From assembly GCA_017881265.1 (NCBI GenBank), contig JADGRA010000023.1, positions 1-64,000 on the forward strand: a stretch of 64,000 nucleotides of DNA, written 5' to 3'. Shown piece by piece: positions 15,890 to 27,565 of this stretch. This DNA is from Myxococcaceae bacterium (GTDB lineage: Bacteria; Myxococcota; Myxococcia; Myxococcales; Myxococcaceae). The notes beneath the pieces were generated by a model. That model saw only the letters and a program-made list of their open reading frames with translations. It did no database searches and was not told the DNA's origin. Made by a program: the position numbers and the translations under genes. Numbering within the stretch: position 1 is the stretch's first letter; every line of letters starts with the position of its first letter.

Positions 15890-16999
15890 TCACTCCGTGC
15901 GCCCTTCCTTCCCGTGCGCACCGTCGATGGGCTCGCCCCTCGCCCGGTTCTCCCTCCACACGCGTCGCAGGAAGTGTGCGCCGCGGCGAGCGGCCTCGGC
16001 GACCTGGAGCACGGGCCGAGGCACGCCGCGCAGTGGCGCGCGCAGGTGCAGCGTCGAGGTGAGGGGGTCCGGCCAGCGGGCGCGCACCGCGGCGGCGGCC
16101 CGTCTCCAGCCGAGACGGTGCAACTCCAAGAGGGAGTCAGGTGGCGCCTGGAGGCCCCCAGCCCAGGCGCGCAGCGTCGCTCGCCGGAACCACCCAGGGA
16201 CGGACATCAGCGGGGTCCCAGGCGGGAGTCGAGCGTCGAGCAGCTCCGCGGCCAGGGAGATGAGAGCCACCACCGCGTCACTGAGGTGTGGGTTTCCCGC
16301 AAGGCACAACTCCCAGCGGAAGCCTTCGGGCAGCGACTCGAGGAAGGCCGCGACGTCGCACAGCCAGAGCGGTCGCCAGCCGCCGTGGTCAAGTTGGTGC
16401 AGGCAAACCAGTCGAAGGTGGTCCTCCGGCGCGAGTACGCGGAACCGGGCGCTTCCCACCATTTCGGCAGAGCTGCGCTCCCGAAGCTCAGGGAATTGGC
16501 GATCCGGGAGAAAGCGCCGCAGCACGCGCATGTCGAGGTCGACAAAGGCCCGGGATTCCGCGGAAAGCGTTGCGAGGAGGGCGCGAGCCGCGGGCTCCTC
16601 GCTCACATCCACCAGCACGTCCACATCTCCGTAAGGCCGCAACCCTGGCCTGGCATACAGCCGGGCCAGGGACCAACCCTTGAAGACGAGTGGCTCCAGG
16701 CCGACGGCGTTGAAGTGGGTAATGACGTGCTCCAGGCTGTTCGCGTGCACCGCCGCCTGGAGCATGTGGAGACGAAACGCCTCTCGGTAGGGGAGGGCGC
16801 TCGCATGGGAGGCGAGGGAGGACGTGCGTACGCGCCACCAGGCGAGCGCGCCACAGCCCGTCCCGAGGAGCGGCCCTTCAACTGCGGAGAGAGCCTCGCG
16901 GAGGTCACCCGGCGCTTCAGGCGTTTCGCGCCAGGAAGTGCGCAGGACCGAGGCGATGGCCGCGCCTAGAGCCAGCGGGCGGCCGGCAGGCCCTGGCAT
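15890..16999 (-). CDS. Nucleotidyltransferase (NTP_transf_5 type)
   Basis: 369 residues of the uncharacterised nucleotidyltransferase family PF14907. The core runs from FKGWSLARLY (Lys108-Gly109) to RPYGDVDVLVD, where Asp125 and Asp127 form the metal-binding DxD pair. A helical C-terminal half follows, including HQLDHGGWRPLWLCDVAAFL. This family occurs next to HprK-like kinases and PqqD-type proteins in peptide-tailoring loci, for example with paeninodin-type lasso peptides. Here it lies about 150 bp downstream of a PqqD-domain gene on the same strand. Its substrate is unknown; transfer of NMP to a peptide or sugar is possible. Confidence 0.8.
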   Translation of the reverse strand: MPGPAGRPLALGAAIASVLRTSWRETPEAPGDLREALSAVEGPLLGTGCGALAWWRVRTSSLASHASALPYREAFRLHMLQAAVHANSLEHVITHFNAVGLEPLVFKGWSLARLYARPGLRPYGDVDVLVDVSEEPAARALLATLSAESRAFVDLDMRVLRRFLPDRQFPELRERSSAEMVGSARFRVLAPEDHLRLVCLHQLDHGGWRPLWLCDVAAFLESLPEGFRWELCLAGNPHLSDAVVALISLAAELLDARLPPGTPLMSVPGWFRRATLRAWAGGLQAPPDSLLELHRLGWRRAAAAVRARWPDPLTSTLHLRAPLRGVPRPVLQVAEAARRGAHFLRRVWRENRARGEPIDGAHGKEGRTE

Positions 17000-17146
17000 C
17001 AGCGACTTCCGTGCGGGCAGCTACGCCGAGCGCTTAGCCACCGGGGCTTCTCTGGCACGGAGTCCTCCAAGATTTCCAGTGTCCCCGGCTGCTGGGGCGG
17101 CGGTAAACCAGCATCTGCACGAGACTGGTCTCTCTCGAGCGCGGCC

Positions 17147-17770
17147 TTAGCGACAGATGTGCAACCTCGGCCGGCAGTGTCCCGACGGGCAGTCCGAATT
17201 CTGCGTACAAGCGCATCCGGTTGTGGAACAGGCTTCCGCAGCACCGGGCGCGACTACCAACCGGATGACGGGGATTGCCGCGATGGCGAGGTCTGCCAGC
17301 ATTCGCCGCCGCGACATGTCATGGCGGGGCGGAACCTCTGCACTGTTCTCGAGAAGGCCTGCATCGTCGGGCTGCCTCAGGGAGGCGAGCACGAGCTCGG
17401 GGAGGAGGTCTGCTTCCACAGAGATGTCTTGGACGGACCGCTGCCCATCACACAGTTCCCAGGTGAGACTGGCGGGCCCATTTAGAGCCAGAGCCTGGTG
17501 CGTGTCCTCGACATAAGGGTGCGTCTCGCCGTCGACCTCCTGAGTGACAAGCCCGCGGCGCCTAGGTCGCGGGACAAGGCTCGCGGGCTGGACACTGGTC
17601 GCAACGCTAGCACTTGGTGTCCGAAATCCAATGTAGCTGTAAGCGTATTGATGCAGAAGTGCCCATCTCCCTTGCCTTGGAACGAGGCGCGGCGGCTCAG
17701 GGAACAGGCGTCGGACGCGTCCCAATTCGCGGACTCTCGGTGCTGGCCCTGAAATTTTCCGGCTTGGCAC
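17147..17770 (-). CDS. PqqD-domain protein with Tat-like segment and six-Cys tail, copy 1
   Basis: From the only upstream ATG (17770) this gives 207 residues. Residues about 64-142 form a PqqD/RRE-type winged-helix domain (QEVDGETHPYVEDTHQALAL, then NGPASLTWELCDG). After a short linker comes SRRRMLADLAIAAIP at about 153-167, a twin-arginine-like charged and hydrophobic segment. It ends in a tail with six cysteines (181, 186, 188, 194, 199, 206). The paralogue at 20196-20648 begins with ATG exactly where this copy has ACC (17599), and no ATG, GTG or TTG lies in frame between 17770 and the domain. The 60-residue N-terminal extension is therefore probably artefactual, or the start has been lost. 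Confidence 0.65.
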   Translation of the reverse strand: MPSRKISGPAPRVRELGRVRRLFPEPPRLVPRQGRWALLHQYAYSYIGFRTPSASVATSVQPASLVPRPRRRGLVTQEVDGETHPYVEDTHQALALNGPASLTWELCDGQRSVQDISVEADLLPELVLASLRQPDDAGLLENSAEVPPRHDMSRRRMLADLAIAAIPVIRLVVAPGAAEACSTTGCACTQNSDCPSGHCRPRLHICR

Positions 17771-18003
17771 TCCGAACTAGAGCTGTTGGCCCAGCGTTTG
17801 GCCGGCGTCGGCCGCGGCAAGCACTCGCCGGCAATTCAGAACCGACTTGGGGAAACTGGGCGTACGATTCTCGCGCGTGATGGGCGCTGCCGGCGGTGTC
17901 ATCACCGCCGGCGTGTCGGGTGGCGGGGTCGTAGCGGACAAAGCCACTCTTGAGAGGCGGTCCGTTCCAGGGGGAAGTGCGGCGTTTCAGCTATTGTGGA
18001 GGG

Positions 18004-19986
18004 ATGCGAATGGCTTCGACCCGCGCGGTCTTCGTGGCGTTACTCGTGATTGGGATTGCCGGCTGTCCCGGTGGCGGCAACCCGGCACCGACCATTGTGA
18101 GCTTCACATGCACGTCCCCGCTTCCGTTTGGCGGCGGCCCTGTGACGCTGGCTTGGAACGTGAACGGAGCAGTCACTGTCTCCATCGACAACAACGTTGG
18201 CGTGGTGAATCCACCAACGTCGGGGAGCACTTCTGTCAACGTGACAGGGTCCACCACCTTCACGCTGACGGCGACTGGCAGTACCGGCAGCAGCAACAGG
18301 GCTACAAAGGAGTGCCTCGTGGTGGTGAACGCCCTCACCATCAGCAGCTTCACCGCGACGCCGTCGATCCTCCCCGTTGGAGGCGGCCCTGTAACGCTCG
18401 CTTGGAACGTCAAGGCTGCAACCAGTCTCTCCATCGACAACGGGGTGGGACAGGTGACGCCAGTCGATGTTGGTAGCAAGGTAGTTCAGGTCACAACCAC
18501 CACCACGTTTATGCTGACAGCAACGAATGCGAACGGGAGCAGCACCGCGACCGTAGGAGTAACGGTGCCCAAGACGCCGCCTGTTATCAATAGCTTCACA
18601 GCCACGCCGTCCAGTCTGCCCACCGGGGGCGGTCAGGTGAAGCTTGCTTGGGATGTGACTGGTGCAAACAGTCTTTCCATCGACCAGAACGTCGGCTCAG
18701 TTTCCCCCAACATCGGCTCCATCACAGTTCTCGTCTCAACCACCACCACGTTCACTCTGACCGCCACCGACCCCTACGGGATGAGCACTGCAACCGCGCT
18801 AGTCACCGTAACAGTGGGCCAGGCGATCGAAACCGTAAACGGGACCGTGGTCGACGAAAATGGCCAGCCCATTGCCGGCGAGACGGTGCTCATAGTGAGC
18901 GACGGGGGCACTGTAACAGCCGTGACGGATGGCGATGGCGGCTTCACCGTGCCGAACGTCCAGCCGCCGTACAACGCGACGGTCATCGAAACCGCTCAGG
19001 CCGTCCAGTACCAGGGCCTCACGCGTACAGACCCTTCGTTGTCTGCATTCGTTTTCCTTCCTTCGAATCGCACCGCTACGTTGTCGGGCACGTTCACCGG
19101 CAGCGGCGTTTTCCCCGAGCCTTCTGGGTATTCAACCGGTTTTCTGTTTGTCTCCCCACAAGCCATCAAGAACCTCTTTGATCATCCGACTGGAAGCTAT
19201 TCGTCGACGGTGACGTGGCCCGGACCGACCAGCACGACGGGTACTGTGTACGCCCTCCAGAAGCACACCGACGCCGGTCTACCGACGGACTACCCAGGCT
19301 ACGGCTCTTTAAGCGGAGTCGTGCTTCAGGACACCGGGACTCTTACCGGCCAGAACGTGCCCTTGAGCCCAGTGACGAGCGGCTTGGTCTCAGGCTCAGT
19401 CGTCAGCGTACCAAGCGGCTACACCTTGGTCGTCAAGTCGATGTCGATCGAAGTGACGTCAGGGGTCACAATGAGTCTGCTCATTGACGGCAGCCCGAGC
19501 GCCACGTTTTCCTACGTCGCCCCGTCTATTGCGAATACGCAGATCTTCATTTCAGCCACCGCGACAAGCGCAGCAGGTGAGGTCAGCGAAATCCTGCAGG
19601 CAGGCCTAGCAGCGAACGTCCCTAACGTTACGCTCGCCATCCCGGCCGCACCAGTGCTCAGTTCTCCGTCGAATGCGGCGACAGGCGTAACGGGAACGAC
19701 TGCATTCTCGTGGACGCCATTCCCGAGCGGGATTCACGAGTTTGTTGCATATCCGCAGTCGGGCCAGACTGGACCAACTTTTTACGTAGTAACGGCCGCC
19801 ACAACGGTTGACCTAGCGGACGCTGGGCTCCCGCTGCCCTCGACTACCGGTTACAACTGGTATGTGGTTGGTTTGTCTCCCGTGACTACGGTCGACATTG
19901 TGGCAGCGCCCGGCGGGCTTAATCGGATTAGCTTTAATCTGAGCGACGGAGTGAGCGCGGCTCGCACGTTTACGACCGGCCCTTGA
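18004..19986 (+). CDS. Lipoprotein with three Ig-like repeats and a carboxypeptidase-regulatory-like domain
   Basis: 660 residues. A lipoprotein signal ends at IAGC (Cys21). Three tandem repeats of about 85 residues (about 27-115, 116-200, 201-285) share the pattern GGGPVTLAWNV, SLSIDNGVG, then a Thr-rich strand TTTFTLTAT, an Ig/PKD-like beta sandwich. A carboxypeptidase-regulatory-like domain follows (GTVVDENGQPIAGETV near 290). The rest is beta-rich, with a late fibronectin-like segment. It is probably anchored in the outer membrane and surface-exposed. It lies on the opposite strand between the two PqqD genes, and its composition is less GC-rich than its neighbours. A second in-frame ATG at 18010 has better spacing to the ribosome binding site. 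Confidence 0.8.
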   Translation: MRMASTRAVFVALLVIGIAGCPGGGNPAPTIVSFTCTSPLPFGGGPVTLAWNVNGAVTVSIDNNVGVVNPPTSGSTSVNVTGSTTFTLTATGSTGSSNRATKECLVVVNALTISSFTATPSILPVGGGPVTLAWNVKAATSLSIDNGVGQVTPVDVGSKVVQVTTTTTFMLTATNANGSSTATVGVTVPKTPPVINSFTATPSSLPTGGGQVKLAWDVTGANSLSIDQNVGSVSPNIGSITVLVSTTTTFTLTATDPYGMSTATALVTVTVGQAIETVNGTVVDENGQPIAGETVLIVSDGGTVTAVTDGDGGFTVPNVQPPYNATVIETAQAVQYQGLTRTDPSLSAFVFLPSNRTATLSGTFTGSGVFPEPSGYSTGFLFVSPQAIKNLFDHPTGSYSSTVTWPGPTSTTGTVYALQKHTDAGLPTDYPGYGSLSGVVLQDTGTLTGQNVPLSPVTSGLVSGSVVSVPSGYTLVVKSMSIEVTSGVTMSLLIDGSPSATFSYVAPSIANTQIFISATATSAAGEVSEILQAGLAANVPNVTLAIPAAPVLSSPSNAATGVTGTTAFSWTPFPSGIHEFVAYPQSGQTGPTFYVVTAATTVDLADAGLPLPSTTGYNWYVVGLSPVTTVDIVAAPGGLNRISFNLSDGVSAARTFTTGP

Positions 19987-20195
19987 GGTGGCGCCCGCGT
20001 GAGTTGACCGAGGAGGGCTCGCCAGCAAGCGCCTTACTGCGGAGCGGCTTGGCGCTGCTGAGAATTTCCCGTTTCGCGCTAGTATGGGCGCTGCCGATTA
20101 GAACGAGCCGAGCAACTTACCAGAAGGCGCGGCCCATGCTGTCCTCTCGGCAAAGCGATTGCGAAGCAGGAGCCAAACCTGAGAACCAACTAGCC

Positions 20196-20648
20196 TTACT
20201 GGCAAGTGCCGGGGGGCGTACAAGGGTTGCCGGAGCTGCAGCACGGTACGGTGAGACTGCAAGTCTGGCCCGACGCGATGCAGGATGATGCCGCCGCCGC
20301 TGCTCTGGGTGCCAAGACCATAAGAACGACCGGTCCGGCCAGCGCAGCGCCGACGATCATGCGCCGGGAGAGATTGACTCTCTGTACGTACCCGCCGTTC
20401 TCTAGGAGACCCGCGTCTGCGAGTTGCTTGAGGGCACCCAACACTACGTCTGGGACGACGTTGGCCTCTGCAGCGATGGCCTCCACTGGCCGCTTGCCGT
20501 CACAAAGTGCCCAGATGCGGCTGGCCGGGCCATTCAAGGAAGACGCCTGGTGCGTCTCCTCTACGTAGAGCAACGTCTCACCGTCGACTTCCTGGGAGAC
20601 GACGCCGCGACGGCGGGGCTGCGGGACGAAGTCGCGCGGAACGGACAT
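20196..20648 (-). CDS. PqqD-domain protein with Tat-like segment and six-Cys tail, copy 2
   Basis: 150 residues. Residues 1-85 are a PqqD-type domain closely related to copy 1 (SQEVDGETLLYVEETHQ, SLNGPASRIWALCDG, LKQLADAGLLENGG). Residues 94-118 are a twin-arginine-like segment (LSRRMIVGAALAG and a hydrophobic core ending in Ala-rich APRAAAAA). The tail holds Cys123, 130, 136, 137, 143 and 149 in the order C-C-CC-C-C. PqqD domains bind leader peptides for modification enzymes, so fusion to an export-type segment and a cysteine-rich tail is unusual. The gene overlaps the end of the HprK-like gene by 71 bp and is probably co-transcribed with it. Confidence 0.78.
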   Translation of the reverse strand: MSVPRDFVPQPRRRGVVSQEVDGETLLYVEETHQASSLNGPASRIWALCDGKRPVEAIAAEANVVPDVVLGALKQLADAGLLENGGYVQRVNLSRRMIVGAALAGPVVLMVLAPRAAAAASSCIASGQTCSLTVPCCSSGNPCTPPGTCQ

Positions 20649-21510
20649 GAGGAGGCAGACTAGCACCCCTTGAGGGTCCGGCCGCCAAGCGCAATAGGGT
20701 CTTGGCCGCTTCTTCCGCTGACCCGCGAACACTGCGAAACCCCTCCGCTTTGGAGACCGCCTTGGCGAGGGTCGCCAGCACCTCGGCTGGACGCTCCCTA
20801 GCGGGGACCGTGTTGCTCAAAAGGGCAAGCACCAGCTCCCCCCGGCCAAGGCGCTTGGGCCGCCAGCGGCCTCCCTTAAAATATTCTGCCAGGACAACAA
20901 GGCCTAGGGGTAGGGGCCGGTTGCCCGTTCGGACCACTGACTGGTGGACGGCGACACGGACCTTTTGGCCCCCCTTCGTCCGTACCGAGAGCGCCCGCGG
21001 GTACGGGTGGACGCGGCCCTCCGTGTCCAGAAGGGCGTACTCGTCCGAGTAGTAGGTCGCGCCTGCGTCCAGAAGCGCCCGCACCAGCGTCGTCTTGCCC
21101 GCGCCAGAAGTGCCCGGAAGCACAAGGGCTTTCCCGGACACGCCCACGACGCCGGCATGGACGAAGACGAAGGCCCGCGAGTGCTGGGCGACGAAGAGTT
21201 GCAGGTCACTCTCCAGCACGTCCAGCGCGCCCAGATGGGCCAGGCCCCGGCCAAGCGCTAGGCCGTCAGCAGTGACGACGACGCCGTCCGTGGCATGCGC
21301 CAGCACGTACCCTCGCGTCGGCCGACCCCGGCGCCCAGGTCGCCAGGTGGGCGGCATCCGCAGACGGGCCTCCTCGAGAAGCGCCGAGGCGTCAGCCTCG
21401 ACGCTGAAGCCGACGCCAAAGGCGCTGCCCCGGAATTTCAGTGGCCTTGGCACTGAGGTCGGAACACTCGCACGGGCCGACGTCGTGGGGTGAGGAGTGC
21501 GTCTTCGCAC
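20578..21510 (-). CDS. HprK-like serine kinase-fold protein
   Basis: 310 residues from a GTG start; the exact start is uncertain. A P-loop GTSGAGKT lies at 133-140 after a beta-rich N-terminal half. Further on are ATYYSDEYALLD (HprK-like metal/catalytic acids) and HPYPRALSVR. This fits the HprK-related kinases found beside PqqD-type and nucleotidyltransferase genes, as opposed to true HPr kinase, which needs a PTS operon. In lasso peptide systems such kinases phosphorylate the precursor peptide. The last 30 residues are low-complexity where the frame overlaps the PqqD gene. The start lies 21 bp after the stop of the efflux outer-membrane gene. Confidence 0.8.
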   Translation of the reverse strand: MRRRTPHPTTSARASVPTSVPRPLKFRGSAFGVGFSVEADASALLEEARLRMPPTWRPGRRGRPTRGYVLAHATDGVVVTADGLALGRGLAHLGALDVLESDLQLFVAQHSRAFVFVHAGVVGVSGKALVLPGTSGAGKTTLVRALLDAGATYYSDEYALLDTEGRVHPYPRALSVRTKGGQKVRVAVHQSVVRTGNRPLPLGLVVLAEYFKGGRWRPKRLGRGELVLALLSNTVPARERPAEVLATLAKAVSKAEGFRSVRGSAEEAAKTLLRLAAGPSRGASLPPHVRSARLRPAAPPSRRRLPGSRR

Positions 21511-21531: not shown

Positions 21532-23013
21532 TCACTTCGCCGCGGGCACAGCGGGATTGCTGCCCGCCGGGCTGGCCGTGGCCTCGGTCTTCGGCACCTG
21601 CCATCCGCCGCCCAGGGCTCGGTACAGGCTGATGAGGGCCAGGTACCGCTGGGCCCGAACGGCGGCCAGGTTGAGCTGGGCGGGGAAGAGGTTGTTCTGG
21701 TTGGTGGTGACCTCCAGGTAGCTGGACACGCCGCCTTCGAAACGGTCGATGGCCAGGTCGACTGCCTCGACCAGGCTGTTCACCTGGGACTCGCGCTGCT
21801 GAAGGACGGGCCCCAGGGCGGAGGTGTCGTTGAGAGAGCTAGCCACCTCCTGAAAGGCGTTGAGGACGCTCCGTTCATAGAACGCCTCGGACTGGAGCCA
21901 GCTCGCCCAGGCCGCGTCGTACTGACCTTTCAGCTGTGCACCCTGAAAAATGGGCGCCAGCCAGCTGGCGGTGCCTCCGACGGACCACACGAAGGAGGGA
22001 CCGGTGAAGAGCTTCGTCAAGTCTGGCGAGGCCAACCCCAGAATTCCGGTGAGGCTGATGGACGGGTAGAAGTTCGCCTGCGCCACGCCAACGAGGGCGT
22101 TGGCGGCGATGAGTTGCTCCTCGGCCTGGTGAACGTCCGGGCGCCGCTCGAGCAGCGAGGAGGGAAGGCCTGGGGGAATGGTTGGGGGTACGACAAACTG
22201 CAGGAGCGTCCGCCCGCGGGGAATGGGCCCTGGCGGCCGCCCCAGCAGGAAGGAAATATGGTTCTCCTGGTCGGTAATCTGTCGCTGCAGGTCGAAGGCC
22301 GTCGCCTGGGCGTCGTTCACTTGGGCCTGGCCGGTCGCGACCTCCAGCTTGGAGCCGGTCCCCCCCTCCAGCCGCGCGGTGTAGAGCTCGAGCGTCTTCT
22401 CGAAGTTCTTCACCGTGGCGTTGGAAATCTCGAGCTGCGAGTCCAGCTGGCGGAGCAGCACATAGGAAGAGGCCACATCGGCGATGAGGCTGACGATGAC
22501 GCCCCGCCGCCCATCCTCCGTGGCGAGGAACTGGGCGACGGCGGCCTCCGTGCCGCGGCGGAATTTGCCCCAGAAGTCGATTTCCCAGCTGAAGGAGGCG
22601 CCGACATTGAATTGCGCGCCAATCGGCTGCGGCGTCGTCGAGCCCAAGGTGGGGGTGGTTTGCCCAGGGATGAAGCTGCCCCGGCTGTAGTTGGCCCCCA
22701 GCCCCACCCCCACCGCCGGGTAAGCCTGGGCGGCGGAGATTCCTGCCTGGGCGCGCGCCTGCTCCACGCGTGCCGCAGCAATGCGCATGTCGGGGTTGTT
22801 CTGAAGCGCCTGGACGATGAGGTCCCGCAGCGCGTCGTCCTCGAAGAGCTCCCACCAGGGCAGGTCGGCGAAGGACTGCGCATCCGCCGGCTTCACCTGG
22901 TCCCGGAAAGCCTCAGTCATCGGCACCGGCGGACGCTGGTAATTCGGTCCGACGGTGCAGCCCACCAAAAGGGCGAGCAGCAGGACGGGGACCCGGGGCG
23001 TGCGCCGCCTCAT
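21532..23013 (-). CDS. RND efflux outer membrane factor (OprM/TolC family lipoprotein)
   Basis: 493 residues. A lipoprotein signal ends at LLVGC (Cys near 19), followed by TVGPNYQRP, the typical opening of NodT/OprM-family channels. Two OEP repeats (about 60-250 and 265-460) supply the helical barrel. The ATG overlaps the stop of the RND permease gene (ATGA), so it is translated with the pump. It forms the outer-membrane exit duct of a tripartite efflux system. The C-terminus is Ala/Pro-rich and probably periplasmic. Confidence 0.93.
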
Positions 23014-26000
23014 GGGTGACCTCCCGCACCCTCCGGCGGGGCGACCGGGGACGCGACGCCAGGCTTGTTGGCAGCGTCCTTGTGACCGGTGATTTTCTCG
23101 AAGAAGACGAAGAGCGCGGGCACGAGAAAAATGGCGATGCCGGTGGCGGCCAGCATCCCCATGATGACGACCGTCCCCAGAATTTTTCGGGAGTTGCCTC
23201 CGGCGCCGGCAGCAAGCCACAAGGGGACGCAGCCGAGGATGAAGGCGAAGGACGTCATGAGGATGGGCCTGAGCCTCAGCTTGGCGCCGGCCAGGGCAGC
23301 GTCCACGAGGGGCCGGCCCTTCTCGAGCTCAGCCTTGGCGAACTCCACGATGAGAATCGCGTTCTTTGCCGCCAGGCCGATGAGCATGATGAGCCCAATC
23401 TGCCCGTAGACGTCGAAGTCGAACCTCCGCATCACGAGGCCGGCGAAGGCACCCAGGATGGCGACGGGCGTCGACAAAAGCACGCTGAAGGGAAGCGACC
23501 AGCTCTCATACAGCGCGGCGAGGATGAGGAAGACGAAGACCAGGCTGAGGACGAAGACCTGCGTCGCCCCGCCCTCGGCCGCCTTCTCCTGGTACGACAT
23601 GTTAGTCCAGGCGATGCCCATACCGGCAGGGAGGACCTCCTTCGCCGTCTCCTCGACGGCCTTCATCACCTGTCCCGAGCTGAAGCCTGGCCTGGCGCTG
23701 CCGAGGAGCTCAGCTGACCGGAAGAGGTTGAAGCGCACCGTGAACTGTGGGCCGCTGATGTTCTCGATGCTGACGAGGGTGGACAGTGGCACCATCTCGC
23801 CCGTGTTGTTGCGGACGTAGAAGCCCTCCAGGTCGCTGGGTTTGAGGCGGTAGTGTGCTTCGGCCTGCATGTAGACGTTCCAGGTTCGCCCGAAGCGGTT
23901 GAACTGGTTGATGTACATGCCGCCGAGAAACGTTTGCAGCGTGTCGTAGACGGCGTTCAGCGGGATCCCCTGTTTGAGGACCTTGTCCTTGTCCACGTTG
24001 ACGAAGAGTTGCGGCACGGCCGGGGCGAAGTTGGGAAGGACGCCTCCAACCTCCGGTCGCTTGTTCAGTGCTTGCACCAGCTTGGCGACATTCTCAGTCA
24101 GGAACTGCTGGCTCCCGCCAGAGCGGTCCTGCACCATGACGTCGAAGCCGCCGGCGGTCCCGATGCCGGGAATGGCAGGCGGAGGGAACGCCACCACGCG
24201 CGCCTCGGGGATGGCGGCAAACGCGGCGTTGAGGTGGCGCAAGATGCCGTCGGCGCTCTCCTCTGGCGTCTCCCGTTCCGACCAGTTCTTGAAGGAGACG
24301 AAGGCCGTGCCGACGTAGCTCGCCGAGTTGGCGGCGAGCATGTTGAGGCCGTTGATGACGTTGTAGCTGCGGACGCCCGGTGTCTGCTTGAGAATCTCCT
24401 CAATCTTCTTCCCGACCTCCCGGGTGCGCTGCAGCGACGCCGCGTTGGGAAGCTGGAAGGAAACCACGGCGTAGCCCTGGTCTTCCTGAGGCACGAAGCC
24501 CCCCGGCAGTCGGCCGCCGACCAGGCCGTCCACCACGCCCACGCCGACAAGAAAGGCGAGCGGGAGCACCATTTTGCGGATGAGGCCGCCCGACAGCTTT
24601 CCGTAGCCGTCCGTGACGCGGTCGAACCACCGGTTGAAGCGGTCGCCGAGCCGCCCCAGCAGGCCCTTCTGGGCCTTCTTGGGGCGCAGCAGCATCGCGC
24701 TCAGGGCCGGACTCAGCGTCAGGGCGTTGAAGGCGGAGATGAGGACGGAGACGGCGATGGTGACTGCAAACTGCTGGTACAGCCGGCCGGTGATGCCGGC
24801 CAGGAAGACGGTGGGGATGAAGACCGCCGCGAGGATGAGGGCGATGCCGATGACGGGCGCCTGCACCTCCTCCATCGCCTTGAAGGTCGCGTCCTTGGGC
24901 GTCATCCCCTTCGCGATGTGGTGCTCGACGGCCTCCACCACCACAATCGCGTCGTCCACCACCAGGCCGATGGCCAGCACCAGCCCGAGGAGCGATAGGG
25001 TATTCACCGTGAAGCCGAGGAGAGGGAAGACGGCGAAGGTCCCCACCAGCGACACCGGCACGGCAATCATCGGGATGAGGGTGGCTCGCCACGACTGCAG
25101 GAAGATGAAGACGACGATGATGACGAGAATCATCGCTTCGTAGAGCGTCTTGATGATGTCGTGCATGCCCTCGCTGATTTGAAGCGTCGTATCCAGCGAG
25201 ACCTCGTAGGCCATGCCGGGCGGGAACTTGTCCTTGAGCTGGGCGAAGGTCTTCTCCACGCCGGCTACGACTTCGAGGGCATTGGACCCTGGCGCCTGCT
25301 GGACTGCGATGACACCGGCCGGCTGGCCGTTGTAGCGGCCCTCCTGCGAATAGATGAGGGCCCCGAGCTCGATGCGGGAAACGTCCTTGAGCCGGACGGT
25401 CGAGCCGTCGGGATTCAGCCGGACGATGACGTTGCCGAAGTCCTCCGCCGTCACCAGGCGTCCCGGGGCGCGGACGGTGTAGGTGAACTGCTGCCCGGGT
25501 GGAGCGGGCTCCGCGCCCACCTGGCCAGAGGGGTTGACGACGTTCTGCCGCTTCACGGCGTCCGCGAGGTCGTTCACCGTGAGGTTGAGCCGGGTGAGCA
25601 AATCCGGGTTCACCCAGATGCGCATCGCGTAGTTGGACGAGCCGTACAGGACGACGTTGCCCACGCCCGGGATGCGCTTAAGCGCATCGACGATGTTGAT
25701 GGTGGCGTAGTTGCCGAGGAAGGTCTGGTCGTAGCGGTTGTCGGGCGAGAAAAGCGAGACGATGATGAGCGGAAAGGAATACGAGGGCTGGATGGTGACG
25801 CCGTTGTTCAGCACCGACTGCGGCAGGCTGGACTGTGCCTGCGAGTAGCGGTTTTGGCTGAGGACGTTGTCGGTGTCGATGTCGGAGCCCACCGCGAATG
25901 TGACGACCATCGTCATCGTCCCGTCGCTGCCGTTGGTGGACTGCAGGTACAGCATGTTCTGAACGCCGTTCATCTGCTGCTCGATGGGCGTCGCGACCGA

Positions 26001-26177
26001 CTGCTCAACCGTGATGGCATCGGCGCCGGTGTACGTCGTCGTCAGCTGAATCTGCGGCGGGACGATGTTTGGAAACAGGGCGATGGGTAGCTTGGTCAAC
26101 GCCACCACGCCGGCAATGACCGTGATGATGGCGATGACAATCGCCACAATCGGCCGCCGGATGAAGAATGCAGACAT
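23010..26177 (-). CDS. RND multidrug efflux permease (HAE1/AcrB family)
   Basis: 1055 residues, the usual length for AcrB-type pumps. It begins with [20 protein letters not shown] (TM1). The proton-relay pair Asp408-Asp409 sits in [17 protein letters not shown] (TM4). Periplasmic loops carry the porter and docking domains (for example [13 protein letters not shown]), and the second half repeats the fold. HAE1 pumps export hydrophobic compounds with proton influx. It is sandwiched between the membrane fusion gene (30 bp) and outer membrane factor gene (4-bp overlap). Confidence 0.96.
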
Positions 26178-26207
26178 GGTGTGGAGTCTCGCCTCGGGCG
26201 CCCGGAG

Positions 26208-27389
26208 CTAGCGAGGCGCCTCTGCCTGCGGGGTGGGAGCGGGCTCCGGCTTGACCTGCATGCCGTCAGTGACCTTCTGGAGTCCTTCCACAATCACCCG
26301 CTCGCCAGCGTTGAGGCCGGACGTCACAATCCACCGCGTCCCGACGCGCGATCCGACCTCCACCTGTCGGAGCTGCACCTTGTCGTCCGGGCTGACGACG
26401 GCAACCGAGTAGGCCCCTTGCACCTCGCTCACCGCGGCCTGCGGAACGAGTAACTTGCTCCCGGCCTCCCCTGGCAGGGTGCCGCGGACGCGGGCGTACT
26501 GCCCGGGCCGAAGCAGCGCAGTGGGGTTGGGAAAGACCGCTTCCACCTGGATGGTGCCGGTGGTGGTCTGCACCTGGCGCTGCACGGCGATGACGAAGCC
26601 CCGGTACGGGTAGGTGCTGTTGTCGGCGAGGATGAGCTGCAGTCCACCGGTCCCCCCGTCCAGCATGTCGGCAAGACGCCTGTTCATCTCAGTCGGGTTA
26701 CGCTGCTCAATCATCTGGCGGACGAGTGGCGCCTGGCGGAGGTACTCGGCCTCCGACACGCTGAAGATGACTTTCGCGGGTTCCACCTGGGACACGGTGG
26801 TGAGAAGCGTGGGCACGCCCTGCCCCACCAGCCCGCCGATGTTGACCTGCGCCGTCCCGGCGATGCCCTCTACGGGAGAGGTGATGCGCGTGTAGCCGAG
26901 GTTGAGCTTGGCCTGCTCCAGGGCGGCCTTGGCCGACTCCACCTGGCCCGTCGCGGCTTGCTGGCCGGCGAGGGCATTGTCCAGGTCCTGCTGGCTGACG
27001 GCCTGCTTTGCGGCCAGCGGCCGGTAGCGCTGGACAGTGACGTTGGCGCGGCTCAGCAGCGCTTGTGCCTGGGCCAGCTCCCCTTGTGCCTGAAGTACCT
27101 GGGATTGGTACTGGGCCGGGTCGATGGTGAAGAGCAGCGTGCCGGCCTTGACGTAGGCGCCATCCTTGTAGTCCTGGGACTTGAGGAAGCCGGCGACGCG
27201 CGCGCGTATGTCCACGTTGAGGTAGCCGTTCACCGTCCCGACGAATTCCGAGTAGACGGAGACGTCCTCCTTCACCGCCGGCGCCACCAGGACGGTGGGC
27301 GGCGGCGGGGGCGGCGGCTTCTTCTCGGCGCAGCCGAGGGCCAGGAGGCCCGCGACGAGCCATGCTTCACACCGCTGCCGACGGCGCAT
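26208..27389 (-). CDS. RND efflux periplasmic adaptor (AcrA family lipoprotein)
   Basis: 393 residues. The lipobox is ALGC (Cys20), followed by a proline run. Then come a barrel-sandwich/lipoyl half (GYLNVDIRARVAGFL), an alpha-hairpin (about 90-165), the second lipoyl half (TRITSPVEGIAGTAQV), a beta-barrel domain and a membrane-proximal domain. It bridges the permease and outer membrane factor. The ATG at 27389 has an AGGAGGG ribosome binding site; the frame stays open upstream but that extension is not protein-like. It is the first gene of the efflux operon. The 176 bp upstream, after the OPX gene, may hold its promoter. Confidence 0.95.
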   Translation of the reverse strand: MRRRQRCEAWLVAGLLALGCAEKKPPPPPPPTVLVAPAVKEDVSVYSEFVGTVNGYLNVDIRARVAGFLKSQDYKDGAYVKAGTLLFTIDPAQYQSQVLQAQGELAQAQALLSRANVTVQRYRPLAAKQAVSQQDLDNALAGQQAATGQVESAKAALEQAKLNLGYTRITSPVEGIAGTAQVNIGGLVGQGVPTLLTTVSQVEPAKVIFSVSEAEYLRQAPLVRQMIEQRNPTEMNRRLADMLDGGTGGLQLILADNSTYPYRGFVIAVQRQVQTTTGTIQVEAVFPNPTALLRPGQYARVRGTLPGEAGSKLLVPQAAVSEVQGAYSVAVVSPDDKVQLRQVEVGSRVGTRWIVTSGLNAGERVIVEGLQKVTDGMQVKPEPAPTPQAEAPR

Positions 27390-27565
27390 TTCACCCTCCT
27401 GACGCACGCCAGCCACCCGCACGCATGGCTGGCCAGCCGCGGCATACTCCATCTTTCGATGGGGGTTGGCTACCGAGGAAGCACGCCTGCGCATCCCTCA
27501 GCGCCGCGTAGCCTTTATTACGTGGTGCATGCGAGACGTCTGTGCTTGGTGAACGGCCCGGCAGG

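Follow-up and report, generated by a model that had tools for sequence, protein, structure and literature searches.

A locus encoding an HprK-like kinase, two paralogous PqqD-domain proteins (copies 1 and 2) and a nucleotidyltransferase of the NTP_transf_5 family (hereafter the NTP enzyme) was found at positions 15,890-21,510 of the 64,000-nucleotide stretch of Myxococcaceae bacterium analysed here (GCA_017881265.1, contig JADGRA010000023.1, positions 1 to 64,000; the window), and its two PqqD proteins are probably exported peptide precursors with a built-in recognition domain, modified by the shared kinase and NTP enzyme (probability about 0.6). This reading was reached by comparison and draws on the protein architecture, a recurring gene set, a split in conservation between leader and cargo, even cysteine counts and the occurrence of one kinase gene for many precursor copies. 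Sequence comparison gives good support for a leader-binding domain and its substrate being united in one polypeptide, and we infer the chemistry, the export by the twin-arginine translocation (Tat) pathway and the function of the tailed proteins. The original prediction, made from the letters of the window, had placed the four genes on one strand and had read both PqqD frames through into an SRR motif, a hydrophobic segment and a six-cysteine tail. All four genes indeed lie on the minus strand, with their families recovered by Pfam and NCBIfam models, and the translations of both copies present six Cys in the tail, after SRR, a hydrophobic stretch and an AxA site.

The N-terminal part of these proteins corresponds to a RiPP recognition element (RRE), RiPPs being ribosomally synthesized and post-translationally modified peptides. 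The PqqD model PF05402 scored 25.1 bits on copy 2, above the cut-off of 23.4, and 17.1 bits on copy 1, below it. Copy 2 and a relative from Acidobacteriota were modelled with AlphaFold2 (AF2), giving mean predicted local distance difference test scores (pLDDT) of 82 and 86, and in both models residues 1-87 adopt the RRE fold, composed of three strands followed by three helices; in copy 2, the pLDDT was mostly 84-95 per ten-residue block after residue 10 of this domain. The closest structures to copy 2 were those of lasso B1 proteins with leader peptides (VIA Z 8.9 for TbiB1, 5v1v, and 8.8 for FusB1, 6jx3), and TbiB1, matched by the domain in Foldseek with E=7e-4, was also the sole PDB match by sequence profile. 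These structure matches span residues 1-87 of copy 2 alone and not the tail. The proposed role of PqqD as a leader-binding recognition domain is therefore sustained as far as the fold is concerned, the binding itself being presumed.

The anatomy of the segment that follows the domain was counted over 99 non-identical family members. The RR pair was present in all of them (99/99), preceded by [ST] in 85 and followed four residues later by K/R in 78, giving the consensus [ST]RRxhh[RK], after which come P (94/99), S (79/99) and AP (A in 77, P in 97), and then A-x-A-x-[ST], with Cys usually coming next and A at the end of AxA in 79 of 95 members. The family thus presents a (S/T)RRxFLK-like Tat motif, a hydrophobic stretch and an AxA site, and this Tat-like signal is internal, about 90 residues from the N-terminus; TatC is encoded in the bacterium's own genome. 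Ser or Thr occupied the +2 position after AxA in 87% of the family, compared with 25% of 120 control signal peptides encoded in the same neighbourhoods and counted at the equivalent offset, and it was retained in most members whose tails are not Cys-rich. Judging from this conservation, the Ser/Thr at AxA +2, which is a Ser in both window copies, is the leading candidate acceptor for modification. Moreover, the conserved segment is similar to the xxPx[hydrophobic] core found in the leaders of lasso peptides, a likeness suggesting that the P-hh-x-S-hh-AP stretch may fill the beta3/alpha3 peptide groove of its own RRE in cis, docking as an extra strand; in both AF2 models, five residues of the P-S-AP segment are predicted as a strand (pLDDT of the block about 60 and 89).

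The strongest division between leader and cargo was observed among the Okeania paralogues and a second genome, which share 96-98% identity over 135 aa up to AxA and only 23-29% in the tails, the latter over the alignable part only, so that the break falls at AxA. In a wider set, the contrast was smaller (domain 0.41-0.44, RR segment 0.45-0.52, tail 0.34-0.36), the tail figure being inflated by common Cys and short alignments. Tail Cys counts were even in 87 and odd in 8 of 95 family members, which is the pattern to be expected of disulfide-bonded peptides outside the cytoplasm, its significance being inflated by shared ancestry. The Cys-rich tail of the original prediction holds for the window and is not obligatory in the family: in some Chloroflexota (loci L285, L289, L290, L041), Gly-rich or Pro/Thr-repeat sequences follow AxA.

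A search for PqqD proteins with a C-terminal RR plus Cys motif, with tabulation of their neighbours, revealed that the architecture is recurrent and often placed beside HprK and NTP genes; homologues that never carry the tail had been named as the finding to fear, and dozens of tailed homologues were found across phyla. Within the same family, Myxococcaceae, three further full-length homologues had the same architecture, and full-length matches occurred in 3 of the 195 Myxococcota genomes. Strong profile matches (E<1e-30) were found in 40/396 genomes of Acidobacteriota, and matches at E<=1e-20 in 9/301 of Chloroflexota and 2/244 of Cyanobacteria; these genome counts are lower bounds, since part of the candidates per genome was scored. 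A scan of species genomes recovered the architecture in Pyrinomonadaceae, gp4 Acidobacteriota, an Actinomycetota metagenome-assembled genome (MAG), Okeania and Chloroflexota.

The tailed genes recur with the same partners. Among 41 neighbourhoods, counted without the Pyrinomonadaceae MAG IP29b_bin.76 (G201), 19 held HprK, tailed PqqD and NTP genes, mostly in the order HprK-PqqD-NTP, and in 13 more the tailed PqqD gene was accompanied by a gene for one enzyme or the other; further cases were seen beyond this count. An HprK of the same family was encoded in all 13 genomes tested, nearly always by one gene, these genomes including two apparent same-organism pairs (G006/G204 and G026/G203). The most extreme case was G201, with 39 matches to the tailed family, 35 of them at E<1e-35, about 36 scattered tailed-PqqD copies (loci L169-L188), internal stops in three or four, and a single HprK gene, which adjoins tsaB, the neighbour of the triad in other Acidobacteriota. 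One kinase gene with many tailed proteins is as expected if the latter are its substrates. In this MAG, 2-oxoglutarate (2OG)-Fe(II) oxygenase genes adjoin six of the tailed genes and may encode further tailoring enzymes. Many loci of the family were flanked by polysaccharide genes (Wzz/tyrosine kinase, SLBB export, GT4, Wzy_C, Polysacc_synt_2), and in one acidobacterial group (L218-L228) the triad occupies a fixed place among polysaccharide genes, with a GT4 glycosyltransferase gene on one side and tsaB on the other. In Gammaproteobacteria, Chloroflexota and other groups (L045, L050, L059, L061, L069, L070, L073, L074, L075), tail-less PqqD genes were also observed next to HprK-like and NTP_transf_5 genes. 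A separate precursor beside these tail-less triads was sought by a crude comparison of small open reading frames (ORFs), which returned only PqqD proteins, antisense or out-of-frame ORFs and unrelated genes.

Both enzymes keep their conserved catalytic residues. The best-scoring NCBIfam model on the kinase, TIGR04352 (HprK_rel_A), reached 69.9 bits, and H118, K139 of the P-loop and D156, invariant in an alignment of 34 family members, are all present in the window kinase. Likewise, the match of the NTP enzyme to PF14907 lies above the cut-off, and D125, D127 and D215, invariant in 38 relatives, are all present in the window protein. Paeninodin-type HprK homologues put phosphate on a Ser of lasso precursors, and in pseudomycoidin PsmN is required for the hexoses on phospho-Ser (PMC9266682); similarly, the core Ser3 of the linear polyphosphorylated peptides (LPPs) is phosphorylated by the HprK-like LppK (PMC13381572). 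In the proposed sequence of events, the N-terminal RRE would present the C-terminal part of the same protein for modification; by comparison with these homologous systems, the kinase would phosphorylate Ser/Thr, most likely at AxA +2, and the NTP enzyme would then add a sugar or nucleotide to the phosphate, as PsmN seems to do in pseudomycoidin. The RR-hydrophobic-AxA segment would next act as an internal Tat-like export signal, with a signal peptidase cutting after AxA and the Cys-rich tail forming disulfides outside the cytoplasm. It had been proposed that recognition domain and substrate are fused and that the tail is modified in cis; the fusion is upheld by the hypervariable tails and by one kinase serving many copies, and the cis relation is to be narrowed to recognition, the kinase acting in trans. 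A bolder version, somewhat less likely than not, is that these proteins form a class of their own, made up of secreted peptides that are phosphorylated, perhaps phospho-glycosylated, and whose leader is the RRE itself, folded over its own hydrophobic segment so that the Ser/Thr near the cleavage site is offered to the shared HprK before the segment serves as export signal. If so, single-kinase genomes with dozens of precursors would possess a diversified peptide arsenal or surface coat.

Several observations weigh against the tailed proteins being modified, exported precursors. Neither enzyme gene was present in 9 of the 41 neighbourhoods, some of which lie at contig ends, and NTP_transf_5 was looked for in G201 and not found. 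The Phe of the classical Tat motif occurs in 3/99 members only, and the conserved segment Ser is replaced in both window copies, by Met and Leu. Finally, the statistics of Cys parity and of the S/T site ignore shared ancestry.

Among the alternatives, it is unlikely that the tailed PqqD protein is a membrane-anchored chaperone, with the RR segment as an N-in/C-out anchor and the tail as a disulfide-bonded periplasmic cap, while the enzymes modify a separate, unlinked substrate, for instance a peptide or a glycan. The tail-less PqqD-HprK-NTP sets of Gammaproteobacteria and Chloroflexota favour it, since they imply that the enzymes are able to work with a discrete RRE, and so do the polysaccharide genes beside several tailed loci. 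However, a structural cap is not expected to be hypervariable behind a 96-98% identical module, nor to exist in about 36 copies per single kinase gene; moreover, the AxA and S/T site is conserved beyond ordinary signal peptides, and no recurrent separate small ORF was noticed near the tail-less triads or among the recurrent neighbours of the tailed loci. It is rather improbable, too, that the tail is no more than a secreted, disulfide-rich protein of ordinary kind, for which the PqqD-RR module would be a delivery or quality-control signal modified by HprK and the NTP enzyme in place of the cargo. The great variety of the cargo, which in some members is Gly-rich or a Pro/Thr repeat and lacks the Cys pattern, and the position of the conserved segment Ser in the module agree with such a signal, but homologous kinases phosphorylate core residues of precursors (PMC9266682, PMC13381572), and in the window copies it is the segment Ser that is missing and the +2 Ser that is kept. 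The weakest alternative, that the tail arises from read-through or faulty annotation and that function resides in the PqqD domain alone, draws on the lack of a recognisable start codon in copy 1 and can be rejected with near certainty, because RR, AP, AxA and paired Cys are retained by full-length homologues from at least four phyla and the codon-position GC signal continues through the tail.

Regarding this last signal, the GC content at third codon positions (GC3) was 0.74 in the tails of both window copies, similar to that of the domains, as expected for translated tails. In copy 1, the codon listing revealed no ATG, GTG or TTG close to the homologous start, and the upstream extension to the GTG at 17770 looks non-coding, because its GC3 is 0.52 vs 0.71 in the domain and 0.74 in the tail. 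The start of copy 1 is thus lost or non-canonical, and the gene may be decaying.

Among known systems, the closest likeness is to the LPPs of Bacillota (PMC13381572, Nat Commun 2026), which share an HprK-like kinase, an RRE and an NTP transferase without a lasso cyclase, a precursor design in which the N-terminus is conserved and the C-terminus highly variable, and loci in polysaccharide clusters. Their Ser3 is phosphorylated just after the leader cleavage site (PMC13381572), and here the candidate S/T lies at AxA +2. In LPPs, however, the RRE is discrete, whereas in both window copies it is fused to the RR segment and tail, and they have an archaeal-type signal peptidase and an MsbA-like exporter, whereas an internal RR-hydrophobic-AxA segment is found here; the phyla also differ. 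Among the families that recur as neighbours, mostly assessed from their sequences and not by family search, no archaeal-type signal peptidase or MsbA-like exporter was noticed, and the LPP leader motif YxxPxVLxHQxIxFET had no match in six frames of 298 sequences (2.46 Mb). Membership of the LPPs was rejected on the fused RRE and the unmatched motif.

The phosphorylated lasso peptides paeninodin and pseudomycoidin (PadeK, PsmK, PsmN; PMC9266682) share an HprK-type kinase, a PqqD-like B1 protein and a nucleotidyltransferase-like enzyme, and the phospho-Ser of pseudomycoidin carries hexoses (PMC9266682); they differ in that the substrate is here fused to the RRE, C-terminal of it. In agreement with the predicted absence of a leader protease, the lasso B2 peptidase model PF13471 gave no match over the cut-off in the bacterium's own genome (best 24.2 bits vs 26), on which ground membership of the lasso family was rejected. 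Among the genes listed for the window, no lasso Asn-synthetase-like cyclase was noticed, no genome-wide search having been made. Most likely, the tailed PqqD proteins work like LPPs or phosphorylated lasso precursors, yet lack what defines either group.

The HPr-rel-A system (TIGR04352/TIGR04353) also pairs an HprK-related kinase with a PqqD-type protein, but the window kinase falls far below the equivalog cut-off of 200 bits, the best score seen for a PqqD-tail protein, in Okeania, was 31.1 vs a cut-off of 35, and the model has 74 positions and covers no tail. Bufferin and other systems linked to multinuclear non-heme iron-dependent oxidative enzymes (MNIO) differ by using MNIO enzymes with a separate RRE partner, without HprK or NTP, and a Sec-type N-terminal signal. 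What these MNIO-linked RiPPs share with the present family are secretion signals in leaders and Cys-containing cores, together with DUF2063-associated RREs (PMC12710340). A study of RiPPs from Acidobacteriota (Nature 2026, PMC13083261) deals with lanthipeptides. Searches of open-licence papers, bioRxiv excepted, yielded no account of the fusion of a PqqD/RRE protein to a Cys-rich tail.

RiPP genome mining presumes that recognition domain and precursor are separate polypeptides, and a fused family would be annotated as PqqD chaperones and its peptides overlooked. The fusion would make it simple to trace such peptides, modified and secreted, in Acidobacteriota, Myxococcota, Chloroflexota and Cyanobacteria; it would also offer a natural template for placing a phospho-tag on arbitrary cargo and a direct test of the action of HprK/NTP pairs outside lasso peptides, and it points to an undescribed route for making and secreting modified peptides.

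Table 1. Features of the HprK-PqqD-NTP locus in the window.
Feature	Position	Strand	Remarks
HprK-like kinase gene	20578..21510	-	First of set; GTG 21510, exact start uncertain; TIGR04352 E=2e-19
PqqD/RRE protein with tail, copy 2	20196..20648	-	150 aa, ATG 20648; PF05402 above cut-off; tailed homologues
RRE domain of copy 2 (residues 1-87)	20388..20648	-	AF2 model and VIA structure matches
SRR-hydrophobic-AxA segment of copy 2 (residues 94-119)	20292..20369	-	Candidate Tat-like export signal or in-cis recognition strand
Ser121 of copy 2, AxA +2 residues	20286..20288	-	Candidate acceptor site; S/T enrichment
Six-cysteine tail of copy 2 (residues 120-150)	20199..20291	-	Translation; family Cys counts even in 87/95
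PqqD/RRE protein with tail, copy 1	17147..~17596	-	Without canonical start near homologous start; possibly decaying
NTP_transf_5 enzyme	15890..16999	-	369 aa; PF14907 E=6e-23; D125, D127, D215 invariant

The 3′ end of the kinase gene overlaps the start of copy 2 (Table 1). Beyond the two PqqD copies, their own genome yielded no good match to the tailed family. The copies lie 2.6 kb apart and are separated by a plus-strand gene at 17950-19986, so that the order of the locus is HprK-PqqD-[insertion]-PqqD-NTP. This intervening gene is lipoprotein-like; it has repeated segments and encodes a CarboxypepD_reg domain. The kinase gene is immediately preceded, on its own strand, by a resistance-nodulation-division (RND) efflux operon (21532-27494), and a related RND permease gene was also observed near tailed PqqD genes in other Myxococcaceae MAGs (L204, L266). 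GC3 was about 0.66-0.81 across the locus and 0.82-0.93 in the adjacent RND operon and the downstream genes, and the lower value of the locus may be a sign of its acquisition by transfer.

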